The notes beneath the pieces are model-generated. The model was not told the origin of the DNA. It did no database searches and saw only the letters and a list, made by a program, of their open reading frames with translations. The position numbers were made by a program, and so were the translations under genes. Positions 60,861 to 64,000 of a DNA stretch of 64,000 nt are shown here, piece after piece. Where the stretch lies: assembly GCA_903821685.1 (NCBI GenBank), contig CAIJLW010000076.1:1-64000 (forward strand), given 5' to 3'. This DNA is from an uncultured Sphingomonadales bacterium (GTDB lineage Bacteria > Pseudomonadota > Alphaproteobacteria > Sphingomonadales > Sphingomonadaceae). Position 1 is the first letter of the stretch. Each line of letters opens with the position of its first letter.

Positions 60861-60914
60861 TTTTATGGGTTGATGACGCCTGACATGGATTGTCAGCATC
60901 TGGGCAATTCAGAC

Positions 60915-60950
60915 AAAGAAAAGGGCCGTCCTGTAAACAGAACGGCCCTT
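60915..60950 (-). terminator. intrinsic terminator of the Ala-rich lipoprotein gene
   Basis: AAGGGCCGT (60921-60929) and ACGGCCCTT (60942-60950) form a 9-bp stem with a 12-base loop. On the minus strand the stem is followed by TTCTTTG, 30 bp beyond the lipoprotein gene. It may also slow transcripts from the beta-lactamase-like gene on the other strand. Confidence 0.85.
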
Positions 60951-60980
60951 ATCAAAAGCTTTCGCTAAAAAGCGCGAATA

Positions 60981-61235
60981 TTACTTCGCAGCTTCTTTCG
61001 CTGCTTCTGCAGGCGCACCAGCAGCAGCGGCCGCATCGGCAGGTGCAGCAGCAGCGTCAGCAGCAGGTGCAGCAGCGGCGTCAGCAGCAGGTGCAGCGCC
61101 TTCTACAGCAGCGTCAGCAGCTTCTGCTGGAGCTTCTGTTGCGGTTGCTTCTGCTGCTGGAGCTTCTTCAGCCTTTGAGCAAGCGACCAAACCGAGCGAA
61201 GCGGCAAGAACGAGAGATATAGCAATTTTCTTCAT
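60981..61235 (-). CDS. small Ala-rich lipoprotein
   Basis: An 84-residue lipoprotein with lipobox LVAC (C19). The mature part is almost entirely Ala, Glu, Pro, Thr and Asp in short repeated units (for example two copies of APAADAAA). The tract suggests a flexible, acidic, low-complexity tail, possibly a spacer. No function is recognised. The antisense Gln-rich frame is only its shadow. It has its own terminator and is divergent from the methionine operon. Confidence 0.82.
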   Translation of the reverse strand: MKKIAISLVLAASLGLVACSKAEEAPAAEATATEAPAEAADAAVEGAAPAADAAAAPAADAAAAPADAAAAAGAPAEAAKEAAK

Positions 61236-61427
61236 ATGGGAAACCCCCTAGCAAAACTTATGAAAACCTGACAGGCACGCCACAACAATTACAGCTTGCC
61301 TGCGGAAAGCCCTCTAGCTTGTTCACAATTCGGTGGCAATGCGCTTTTTTAAAGTTTGATATTGTCCCATAACAATTTCGCGCCAATCTCTACCTTAACG
61401 GTAGAAAATATGCGGGATTTGAGCTTA

Positions 61428-61456
61428 TTGACATGATATAAAGAATTCTTTATATG
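61428..61456 (+). promoter_or_regulatory. methionine-operon promoter with a palindromic operator
   Basis: A consensus -35 TTGACA (61428-61433) is followed at 17 bp by a -10-like TATATG (61451-61456). Between and over them lies a perfect 20-bp palindrome, ATATAAAGAATTCTTTATAT (61436-61455). The start codon follows only about 9 bases after the -10, so the transcript may be leaderless or nearly so. The arrangement fits repression by steric occlusion; the likely repressor is the ArsR-fusion encoded next. Confidence 0.75.
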
Positions 61457-61464
61457 CGCTCCAA

Positions 61465-62463
61465 ATGATGAATTTGCTCAATATCATGCGGGCTTTGGCC
61501 GATCCGACGCGCTTGCGAATCGCGTTTTTGGTGCTGCGCTTGGAACTGTCTGTGGGTGAGTTGGTCCAAATTTTGGACCAAAGTCAGCCCCGCGTGTCAC
61601 GCCACATTAGAATATTGGACGAGGCCGGGCTTCTTGAGCGGCGTAAGGAAGGAAGCTGGGTATTTTTGCGGCCTGCTGCAATATTGACCGATAGTCCCGT
61701 CGCATCCTTATTGGCTGAGGCAGATGTATCGCAGGGCAAGGCATTTCAGCGCGATGTTCTTCGGCTTGATGAAGTACGCAGCGCCCGGACCGATATGGCC
61801 GCAGCCTATTTTGCTGCACATGCTGATGAATGGGATTCTCTTCGATCGCTGCACATCGCCGATTCGGAAGTTGAAGCACGGTTGGCACATATCCTCCACA
61901 GCGCGCCATTGGGACGTTTTCTAGATGTGGGAACCGGCACTGGACGCATGGTAGAACTATTTGCAGGGGCCTCGGAGCGTTTTGTGGCTGTCGACAATAG
62001 TCCCGAGATGCTTCGACTGGCGCGGGCGAAGATTGCAAATCTAAGTCCAGAAATCGCGAATAAGGTCGATATTAAGCTCGGCGATTTTAACATGTTACCC
62101 GTAGGCGACGCTGAATTTGACACGGTCATTTTTCATCAAGTGCTGCACTACGCACAGCATCCCGAGGCCGTGATAGCGGAGGCCATCCGTACGCTTGCGC
62201 CCGGCGGCAGATTAGTCATCGTCGATTTTGCTGCGCATAATCTTGAAGAATTGCGCACAGTCCATGCGCACGCGCGGCTTGGTTTCACGGATGACTTCAT
62301 GAAAAAGACCTTTGCTAGCCAAGGCCTTCAACTGGTTCACCAAACCGCTCTTGAAGCAGGCGAATTGGTCATCAAAGTTTGGATGGGCCAAAAACTATCT
62401 GGCGCACAGCCGAGCCCCAAAAGTGGCCTAAGGCCAGAAGATAACCTAAGGATTGTTGCATGA
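61465..62463 (+). CDS. ArsR-type repressor fused to a SAM-dependent methyltransferase
   Basis: A 332-residue fusion. Residues 1-90 form an ArsR winged helix (RALADPTRLRIAFLVL, then QSQPRVSRHIRILDEAGLLERR). Residues about 130-290 are a class I SAM-methyltransferase (RFLDVGTGTGRMVEL at about 151-165, then DSPE- and DTVIFHQVLHYA segments). Such fusions sit before metF/metH in rhizobia and other alphaproteobacteria and are linked to SAH/SAM sensing (SahR-like). Whether the methyltransferase part catalyses or only binds ligand is unknown. ATGs lie at 61465 and 61468; its stop overlaps metF (ATGA). Confidence 0.9.
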   Translation: MMNLLNIMRALADPTRLRIAFLVLRLELSVGELVQILDQSQPRVSRHIRILDEAGLLERRKEGSWVFLRPAAILTDSPVASLLAEADVSQGKAFQRDVLRLDEVRSARTDMAAAYFAAHADEWDSLRSLHIADSEVEARLAHILHSAPLGRFLDVGTGTGRMVELFAGASERFVAVDNSPEMLRLARAKIANLSPEIANKVDIKLGDFNMLPVGDAEFDTVIFHQVLHYAQHPEAVIAEAIRTLAPGGRLVIVDFAAHNLEELRTVHAHARLGFTDDFMKKTFASQGLQLVHQTALEAGELVIKVWMGQKLSGAQPSPKSGLRPEDNLRIVA

Positions 62464-63401
62464 TTCTCCCGCTTGCGCAGATGCAAGAAGCTAGCCGCGC
62501 TGTGGCCTCACCCCTTTTCGCCGGACTTTCGGGTGATTGCGAAATCAGCTTTGAATTCTTTCCGCCCAAGACGGAAAAGATGGAAGAACAACTTTGGGAT
62601 TCGGTCGTAACATTGGCGCCCCTTGCCCCACGCTTTGTGTCAGTCACTTATGGCGCAGGCGGCACCACGCGTGAACGCACGCACAAAACCGTGGCCCGCA
62701 TCGCGCGCGAAACTCACATTCCTGCAGCCGCGCACCTCACTTGCGTCGAGGCGTCAAAAGGCGAAATCGCCGATGTCGCCAACGCGTATTGGGAAGCGGG
62801 TGTTCGCCATATTGTTGCCCTGCGGGGCGATGCCCCCAATTCTGACGGCCGGTTTGTGCCGCACCCTGATGGCTATGCCAGCGCTGCGGAGTTGGTAGAA
62901 GGTTTGCGTAAACTACATCCGTTTGAAATTTCGGTCAGTGCCTATCCCGAAACACATCCCGAAGCATTGTCGGCGGCGTCCGACATTGATTTTCTTAAAC
63001 GCAAACTCGCTTCAGGCGCGAGCCGCGCCATCACTCAGTTCTTTTTTGAACCAGAGACCTTTTTCCGTTTCCGTGATGCTGTCGCGGCGGCCGGCATAGA
63101 TGCAGAGATCGTGCCCGGCATCATGCCCGTGTCGAACTTTGCCGCGATCACACGCATGTCGCAAATGACGGGAACAGCAATTCCGGATTGGATGGCCCAT
63201 CTGTTCGATGGTCTTGATGATCACCCGTCCGCACGGCAGCTGGTCGCCGCGACCGTATCAGCGGAAATGTGCCGCAAATTATATGCAGGCGGTGTACGCG
63301 ATTTCCATTTTTATACACTGAACCGCGCCGAGCTCTCTTACGCTATCTGCCATCTGCTTGGAAAACGGCCAGCCGCGCTTGCGCAAGAGGTCGCAGCATG
63401 A
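62460..63401 (+). CDS. metF: methylenetetrahydrofolate reductase
   Basis: Reduces 5,10-methylene-THF to 5-methyl-THF using FAD and NADH, supplying MetH. The 313-residue TIM barrel begins SFEFFPPKTEKMEEQLW (catalytic Glu region). It shows RFVSVTYGAGGTTR, HLTCVEASKGEI and VALRGDAPN, then FFFEPETFFRF and FHFYTLNRAELSY. Both ends overlap neighbours by 4 bp (ATGA), so repressor, metF and metH are translated as one coupled operon. Confidence 0.97.
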   Translation: MILPLAQMQEASRAVASPLFAGLSGDCEISFEFFPPKTEKMEEQLWDSVVTLAPLAPRFVSVTYGAGGTTRERTHKTVARIARETHIPAAAHLTCVEASKGEIADVANAYWEAGVRHIVALRGDAPNSDGRFVPHPDGYASAAELVEGLRKLHPFEISVSAYPETHPEALSAASDIDFLKRKLASGASRAITQFFFEPETFFRFRDAVAAAGIDAEIVPGIMPVSNFAAITRMSQMTGTAIPDWMAHLFDGLDDHPSARQLVAATVSAEMCRKLYAGGVRDFHFYTLNRAELSYAICHLLGKRPAALAQEVAA

Positions 63402-64000
63402 GTGCGCGTGCGGCCTTTGTTGATCGTGCGGCGCAACAGATCCTGGTTTTTGACGGCGGCTATGGCACAGCGATTCAAGGATACAAACTGTCCGAAGCCG
63501 ATTATCGCGGCGACCTTGATCTGACGCATGATCAAAAGGGAAATAACGACCTGTTGTCGATTACGCGCCCCGACATTGTCGGCGCAGTTCATACCGCTTA
63601 TCTTGAGGCGGGCGCGGATATGATCGAAACCAACACCTTCAGCGCGACCCAAATCAGCATGGCCGATTATGGCTGCGAACATTTGGTTACGCGGCTAAAC
63701 GTGGAATCGGCGAAGCTGGCGCGTGCTTGCTGCGATGCCGCCGAGGCGAAGGACGGCGTTCGGCGCTTTGTGGCTGGCTCGGTTGGCCCGACCAATAAGA
63801 CATTGTCTTTATCCCCTGATGTTAACGATCCAGGCTATCGCGAGATAGACTTTGACTATTTGAAAGATGTCTATCGCGCACAATGCGATGCCTTGATCGA
63901 AGGCGGTGTCGATTTTCTGTTGATCGAAACAATATTCGATACCCTCAATGCCAAATGCGCAGCGATGGCGGCGCAAGAAGCGGCTGCCGCTTGCGGGCGC
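63398..64000 (+). CDS. metH: cobalamin-dependent methionine synthase, N-terminal part (3' end off the window)
   Basis: Visible are 201 codons of a homocysteine-binding domain: ILVFDGGYGTAIQGYKLSEA, NNDLLSITRPDIVGAVHTAY, EAGADMIETNTFSAT, VAGSVGPTNKTLSLSPDV and VDFLLIETIFDTLNAKCA. This is the MetH homocysteine S-methyltransferase module. The gene continues past the right edge, so I cannot tell whether it is the full cobalamin enzyme or the split form (a separate ~350-residue homocysteine module followed by the rest). The start ATG overlaps the metF stop (ATGA). Confidence 0.94.
   Translation, partial: MSARAAFVDRAAQQILVFDGGYGTAIQGYKLSEADYRGDLDLTHDQKGNNDLLSITRPDIVGAVHTAYLEAGADMIETNTFSATQISMADYGCEHLVTRLNVESAKLARACCDAAEAKDGVRRFVAGSVGPTNKTLSLSPDVNDPGYREIDFDYLKDVYRAQCDALIEGGVDFLLIETIFDTLNAKCAAMAAQEAAAACGR

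Follow-up and report, generated by a model that had tools for sequence, protein, structure and literature searches.

The closest described counterpart of the system treated here is the SahR regulon, which was reported with a 20-bp palindromic operator for 7 of 7 Sphingomonadales (Leyn et al. 2014, PMC4239095), and for which gating by S-adenosylhomocysteine (SAH) is stated in that paper and in PMC8877191, both citing Novichkov 2014. Two further proteins bear on it: SamR of the Xanthomonadales, described as SahR-like and as regulating methionine genes, metK, metF and metH among them (PMC4239095), and ArsR-M of Brevundimonas sp. M20, for which Li et al. (2023, PMC10190100) report that the full-length fusion shifts a probe of its own promoter. 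We analysed a stretch of 64,000 nucleotides from an uncultured Sphingomonadales bacterium (the window; contig CAIJLW010000076.1, positions 1 to 64,000), which near its right end carries a gene for a fusion of an ArsR-type domain with a methyltransferase fold, followed by metF and metH. We identify this fusion, with high probability, as SahR acting as an autorepressor of the S-adenosylmethionine (SAM) cycle by the mechanism proposed below, and we call its gene sahR.

The locus resembles the SahR of the published description in its ArsR-type DNA-binding domain, its 20-bp palindrome, its autoregulated metF/metH operon and its ahcY and metK sites. In the window and its genome we found the ArsR domain, the operator ahead of sahR, the core regulon (sahR, ahcY, metH, metF, metK) and a C-terminal methyltransferase fold; that this fold also belongs to the published SahR, we infer from the entry 'sahR (1023)' in an Ensifer primer table (PMC8877191) together with the M20 fusion. 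The window differs from the described SahR in that its operator lies within the promoter spacer of a predicted near-leaderless mRNA. SamR, in contrast, is described with a 24-bp motif (ATC-10 nt-GAT) and with no SAM-cycle genes besides metK (PMC4239095), whereas the motif here is a 20-bp ATATAAAG-N4-CTTTATAT and the regulon includes ahcY. The window protein departs from SamR in motif and regulon, and it departs from ArsM in its cysteines and model scores. The system is ordinary among its relatives and already understood in outline, as a SahR repressor with its regulon, and it bears out, for a lineage of sphingomonads, that SahR controls the SAM cycle.

The SahR fusion, its operon and its regulon

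The sahR gene (61465-62463, plus strand) encodes 332 aa, with an ArsR-type winged helix (residues ~1-90), a linker helix (92-127) and a class I methyltransferase fold (~130-312). The N-terminal part matched the helix-turn-helix (HTH) family HTH_5 (PF01022, 2.9e-12, residues 13-58) and NF033788 (73.6 bits, cut-off 55), and the C-terminal part matched Methyltransf_11 (PF08241, 1.6e-21, residues 153-252). An AlphaFold model built with 61 sequences was confident (mean predicted local distance difference test score 92.2) and showed the winged helix, the long linker helix and, almost complete, a class I methyltransferase. Structure comparison, which hardly probes the N-terminal domain, returned NodS with SAH (3ofk; Z 23.5, root-mean-square deviation (rmsd) 2.2, 189 aligned) and 1vl5 (Z 23.5, rmsd 1.6, 174 aligned). 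In PDB sequence searches (32 and 52 distinct sequences matched) each best stretch fell within a single domain and none covered both. Foldseek rows of near-full length were rejected as homologues of the fusion; most of them are methyltransferases of small molecules, and the rmsd was large (14-21). Over its whole length the protein is 100% identical to that of a locus from Sphingorhabdus sp. isolate D14.bin.29, and the source of the window is taken to be a Sphingorhabdus-like bacterium within the Sphingomonadales.

Two ATGA overlaps join the genes that follow on the same strand. The first (62460-62463) links sahR to metF (62460-63401; methylenetetrahydrofolate reductase, PF02219, 1.5e-93), and the second (63398-63401) links metF to the first half of metH, an open reading frame with the homocysteine S-methyltransferase domain (PF02574) that occupies 63398-64000 of the window and ends at contig position 64444. 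The metH function is split: this 348-aa homocysteine methyltransferase gene is followed, after 23 nt, by an 874-aa gene beyond the window (64468-67092) that encodes the pterin, B12-binding and activation domains of methionine synthase. The first-pass annotation had reported an ArsR-methyltransferase fusion before metF, which the HTH_5, Methyltransf_11 and PF02219 matches bear out, and three ATGA-joined genes of a metF-metH operon; the joins are as it described, its third gene being only half of a split metH and a fourth gene lying beyond the window. It had also pointed to a perfect palindrome between TTGACA and TATATG, and this is indeed present at 61436-61455.

That palindrome, ATATAAAGAATTCTTTATAT, is the only perfect 20-bp palindrome within the window. 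By itself it is improbable to a small degree, since 6 of 60 dinucleotide-shuffled versions of the window also contain one (mean 0.1), and it is conservation that gives it its significance. Within the window's own genome, three sites matched with at most one mismatch (none for the reversed pattern), upstream of sahR, of a 464-aa ahcY (63 nt from operator to GTG) and of a 402-aa metK (29 nt from operator to ATG), both families being confirmed by Pfam. When up to three mismatches were allowed, 6 sites were found compared with 5 for the reversed pattern, and a fourth target was therefore rejected, the three sites with 2-3 mismatches being at chance level: one (L006) lies inside the clpX gene, identified by Pfam, and the others (L007, L008) have no methionine gene by eye. 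The regulon defined by this motif is accordingly three transcription units, sahR-metF-metH, ahcY and metK. Control of the methionine cycle by a SahR-type repressor had been suggested beforehand, and these sites support it; of the genes then proposed for a genome-wide palindrome scan, ahcY and metK are preceded by sites, and the metE part does not apply, as Meth_synt_2 had no match in this genome (10 of 14 control genomes matched).

Across 61 genomes (the window's own and 60 relatives) the motif gave 147 sites, compared with 6 for the reversed pattern, and at least one site was present in 60 of the 61. We chose 40 further non-sahR sites among those listed, leaving out at least three listed others (G037:C171, G040:C1:3711746, G015:C103). 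Twenty of the 40 are upstream of ahcY and 15 upstream of metK; the site on G038:C213 is upstream of ahcY (as L088). The remaining five are at metE behind a cobalamin riboswitch, at an adenosine deaminase gene, in the interior of clpX (identified from its sequence, the clpX of the window's own genome being the one confirmed by Pfam), at a sugar-phosphate gene and at a short-chain dehydrogenase gene. Upstream of sahR itself, 60 sequences had no operator mismatch, 4 had one and 1 had two; these 65 include some contigs twice, and minus-strand genes and loci with short upstream DNA were left out.

The fusion was matched by protein search in all 61 genomes at E <= 0.001, with weak best E values in G010 (1.2e-7) and G060 (8.2e-6); in G036 and G048 the sahR gene is in two pieces on separate contigs. 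Beyond these relatives, 55 of 115 genomes of the alphaproteobacterial class (own included) matched the fusion at E <= 1e-30, and 60 had no match at that level. Reading through succeeded for 27 of the 29 top-scoring other loci that came with DNA (L172 and L173 were left out); metF was the next gene in 26 of these 27, and the motif (at most 3 mismatches, 150 bp upstream) was present in 22. The reversed pattern matched in 1 of the 27, and the number expected from shuffling was 0.04. Fusion, operon and operator together are thus a widespread alphaproteobacterial arrangement.

Promoter layout and the predicted leader

At the window operon the palindrome sits in the 17-bp spacer between a -35 element TTGACA (61428-61433) and a -10 element TATATG (61451-61456), both on the plus strand, and the -10 shares its first five bases with the right end of the palindrome. 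From TATATG to the ATG at 61465 there are 8 nt, and from the palindrome to the same ATG 9 nt. Mapped promoters of Zymomonas mobilis, a member of the same order, follow the rule TTGNNN-17-TANNNN with a 6-bp discriminator and without a conserved T at -7 (PMC7566282), and the -10 element here is of this TANNNN type. Applied to TTGACA and TATATG, this rule therefore predicts the transcription start at 61463, 2 nt ahead of the ATG. In Z. mobilis, 119 of 2,675 pairs of transcription start site and gene are reported as leaderless, defined as a leader of at most 5 nt (PMC7566282).

The conservation of the upstream region points in the same direction. We aligned by operator 73 distinct sahR upstream sequences, keeping only those with a site of at most 2 mismatches within 130 bp and removing exact duplicates. 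The start codon was 8-11 nt past the operator in 58 of them (55 ATG, 3 GTG), and TTGAC stood at one fixed offset in 55 of these 58. With 1.7-2.0 bits per base, TTGAC is the best conserved block beside the palindrome, and the 9 nt ahead of the start are weakly constrained. Pairing of the Shine-Dalgarno (SD) type, at -5 kcal/mol or better, was found in 3 of the 58 near-leaderless sequences vs 12 of the 15 with longer leaders, and at 10 of 10 ahcY sites of the genus. In the longer-leader group the aligned start is 27-83 nt from the operator, a range that is approximate since in 4 of the 15 the aligned position holds no start codon. The sahR operon mRNA is thus probably near-leaderless, as had been proposed from the window alone, and this footprint lends the proposal support.

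An alternative is that the transcript has a normal leader, that the true promoter is further upstream and that TTGACA and TATATG are incidental. A strict E. coli-type sigma-70 scan of 61240-61520 called no promoter here, moderate conservation (1.1-1.3 bits) is seen at some isolated positions further upstream, and about half of the leaderless units of Z. mobilis (52) are reported to have an additional upstream promoter (PMC7566282). However, the scan accepts only a -10 whose sixth position is T, unlike that of TATATG, and it is for this reason, the Z. mobilis promoters being without a conserved T at -7, that it gave no call. Moreover, TTGAC is far ahead of other blocks outside the palindrome in conservation, the 9 nt ahead of the ATG show little constraint and, for the most part, no SD pairing, and TTGACA-17-TATATG fits the Z. 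mobilis pattern and discriminator that predict 61463. We therefore regard a longer leader from an upstream promoter as decidedly improbable.

By the same rule, applied by eye, the ahcY promoter reads TTGATT-17-TATGGG, with the operator adjoining the -35, and the metK promoter reads TTGCCC-17-TAAGAG, with the operator at about +4 to +23. The three predicted operator positions (in the spacer, upstream of the -35 and just past the start) would each be compatible with repression. With a single conserved 20-bp operator predicted to occupy a different place in each of three promoters, the system is convenient for tests of SAH against SAM and of repressor placement. Loss of the leader in one clade, where the operator doubles as the promoter spacer, would be a modest point of novelty, being absent from the passages on SahR cited here; a literature search returned nothing on leaderless transcription with mapped starts in sphingomonads.

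Ligand, catalysis and the arsenite claim

From the domains, operators, regulon, footprint and operon, which can be read from the sequence, we propose a model whose steps of dimer binding, repression, SAH release and leaderless translation would go beyond it. SahR would bind ATATAAAG-N4-CTTTATAT as a dimer, through its ArsR-type winged-helix domain. Since the operator of the sahR operon takes up the spacer and reaches into the -10, RNA polymerase should be excluded there while SahR is bound. The methyltransferase-fold domain would form the ligand pocket, in which accumulated SAH would bind, so that SahR leaves the DNA. Its release would induce ahcY, metF, both metH genes and metK, whereby SAH would be cleared and SAM remade. 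The operon mRNA would start 0-3 nt ahead of the start codon and be translated without an SD sequence.

Several observations weigh against this model or parts of it. Three of the 40 non-sahR sites (L123, L132, L148) have no methionine link, and 5 of the 27 class-level loci lack the motif at 3 mismatches or fewer. G010, a draft of 200 contigs, has 2 sites yet no full-length SahR match, and G060 has neither a strong SahR match nor any site. The palindrome of M20, CTTTATATAAAG, has the same half-site letters as the window operator in opposite order. As to the leader, SD-like pairing was found at 0 of 9 metK sites of the genus, so that its absence is not special to sahR; most of the 58 near-leaderless sequences come from one clade and hence are not independent; and the strict promoter scan, as mentioned, made no call.

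The protein might instead sense SAM, as proposed for SamR, and close the cycle when SAM is plentiful. Solved structures of the same fold contain bound SAM or SAH, and metK is among the targets, as it is for SamR (PMC4239095). Nevertheless, ahcY, the gene that clears SAH, is targeted here and at 20 of the 40 further sites, which suits SAH, and the case for SAM in SamR was argued from the lack of SAM-cycle genes besides metK (PMC4239095). Sensing of SAM is, in our view, unlikely.

Conservation in the SahR protein also bears on whether the domain is a sensor or an enzyme. Among 61 proteins, the HTH residues Q39, S40, Q41, P42, R43, S45 and H47 are invariant, and so are the residues expected at the SAM/SAH site (D154, G156, T157, G158, G160, D177 and D207). 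H228, D254, H258 and H269 are invariant as well, and H224 and Q225 nearly so; this cluster would lie on the acceptor side of the pocket. The pocket is thus retained, with conservation that goes beyond the bare cofactor site, a pattern that fits a tuned ligand sensor and is compatible with an enzyme. If the domain were a working enzyme, turning over SAM at H224-Q-V-L-H228, D254, H258 and H269 and keeping the product SAH in its own pocket, the repressor would read flux rather than passively sense the SAH pool. Such a regulator, one that measures flux, we hold to be very doubtful.

Catalysis had been put forward beforehand as an open question; it has in fact been addressed in print for the ArsR-M of M20, which, from operon order, length, half-site letters and residue matches, is an apparent orthologue of the window SahR. 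Like sahR, the M20 gene encodes an ArsR-methyltransferase fusion and heads a metRFHH operon with the gene order of the window operon. Seven of the nine pocket residues cited for M20 have the same letter in the window at +1 (H223, Q224, H227, Y228, F254, R263 and H268, corresponding to H224, Q225, H228, Y229, F255, R264 and H269), and six of these seven are kept in 57-61 of the 61 proteins, Y229 being kept in 39 (F in 22). The two proteins differ at C134 and P296, which correspond to E135 and E297 of the window, at positions that are not conserved. The M20 paper claims methylation of arsenite, with raised arsenite tolerance in E. coli and 0.87 U/mg in a coupled kit assay; it assigns the As(III) ligands to Q224 and Y228, which are not thiols, and states for its aligned ArsM set that cysteines bind As(III) (PMC10190100).

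The fusion could then be bifunctional, using SAM to methylate As(III) and regulating the met operon as well. In its favour are the tolerance and kit signal reported for an apparent orthologue in a metRFHH operon (PMC10190100) and the seven matching pocket residues. Against this, the counterparts of C134 and P296 are missing, and the window protein contains no cysteine in its 332 aa; of 97 distinct proteins 47 are cysteine-free, and the column richest in cysteine has it in 30 of 61 (and V in the window protein). ArsM models scored far under their cut-offs (49.2 of 240 and 47.9 of 263 bits), the regulon consists of methionine-cycle genes, and the M20 support, as published in the passages cited, is a coupled kit assay without arsenic speciation (PMC10190100). 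We consider the bifunctional protein extremely improbable and arsenite methylation unlikely as the family function, and we judge the evidence for catalysis in the M20 orthologue to be weak. Since the window protein has no cysteine, the arsenite claim should not be transferred to it.

What appears to be a single protein family is present in two literatures, as ArsR-M with arsenite methylation (PMC10190100) and as SahR with methionine regulation (PMC4239095), the cited passages of the first making no mention of SahR. A literature search for an ArsR described with a C-terminal methyltransferase domain, in those words, returned nothing.

Additional sites and neighbouring features

In a relative from another family (L150, G046:C2:32353-34772), an exact palindrome (1201-1220) is followed by a cobalamin riboswitch (1248-1456; RF00174, 115.5 bits) and then by metE (PF08267), which is apparently under double control by SAH and B12. 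At L145 (G048:C561:1-1625) an exact palindrome (406-425) lies 9 nt ahead of the probable start codon of a gene for adenosine deaminase (PF00962), with the same spacing as at sahR; removal of adenosine by this deaminase would draw SAH hydrolysis forward. The other member of the G048 family in the sample, G042, has a single site, at sahR, and in the window's own genome a search for adenosine deaminase gave no match (8 of 14 controls matched). One-mismatch palindromes also stand ahead of a 6-phosphogluconolactonase-type gene (L123, G005:C1) and of a short-chain dehydrogenase gene (L148, G057:C1), and these two may be chance sites or lineage-specific targets.

A riboswitch in place of the repressor was also considered and rejected. 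The 7 Rfam matches in 60900-64000, isrG among them, are all below the gathering score and all at 60911-61228, in or just after a low-complexity divergent gene, with none from 61229 to the sahR start. No Rfam match at or above threshold was found in the ahcY and metK loci of the same genome (L004, L005). SAM_alpha had no match in that genome, but it had none in the control genomes either, so that its absence carries no weight. The divergent gene (60981-61235, minus strand) encodes an 84-aa Ala/Glu-rich protein without a Pfam match that carries, by eye, a lipoprotein-like signal (LVAC).

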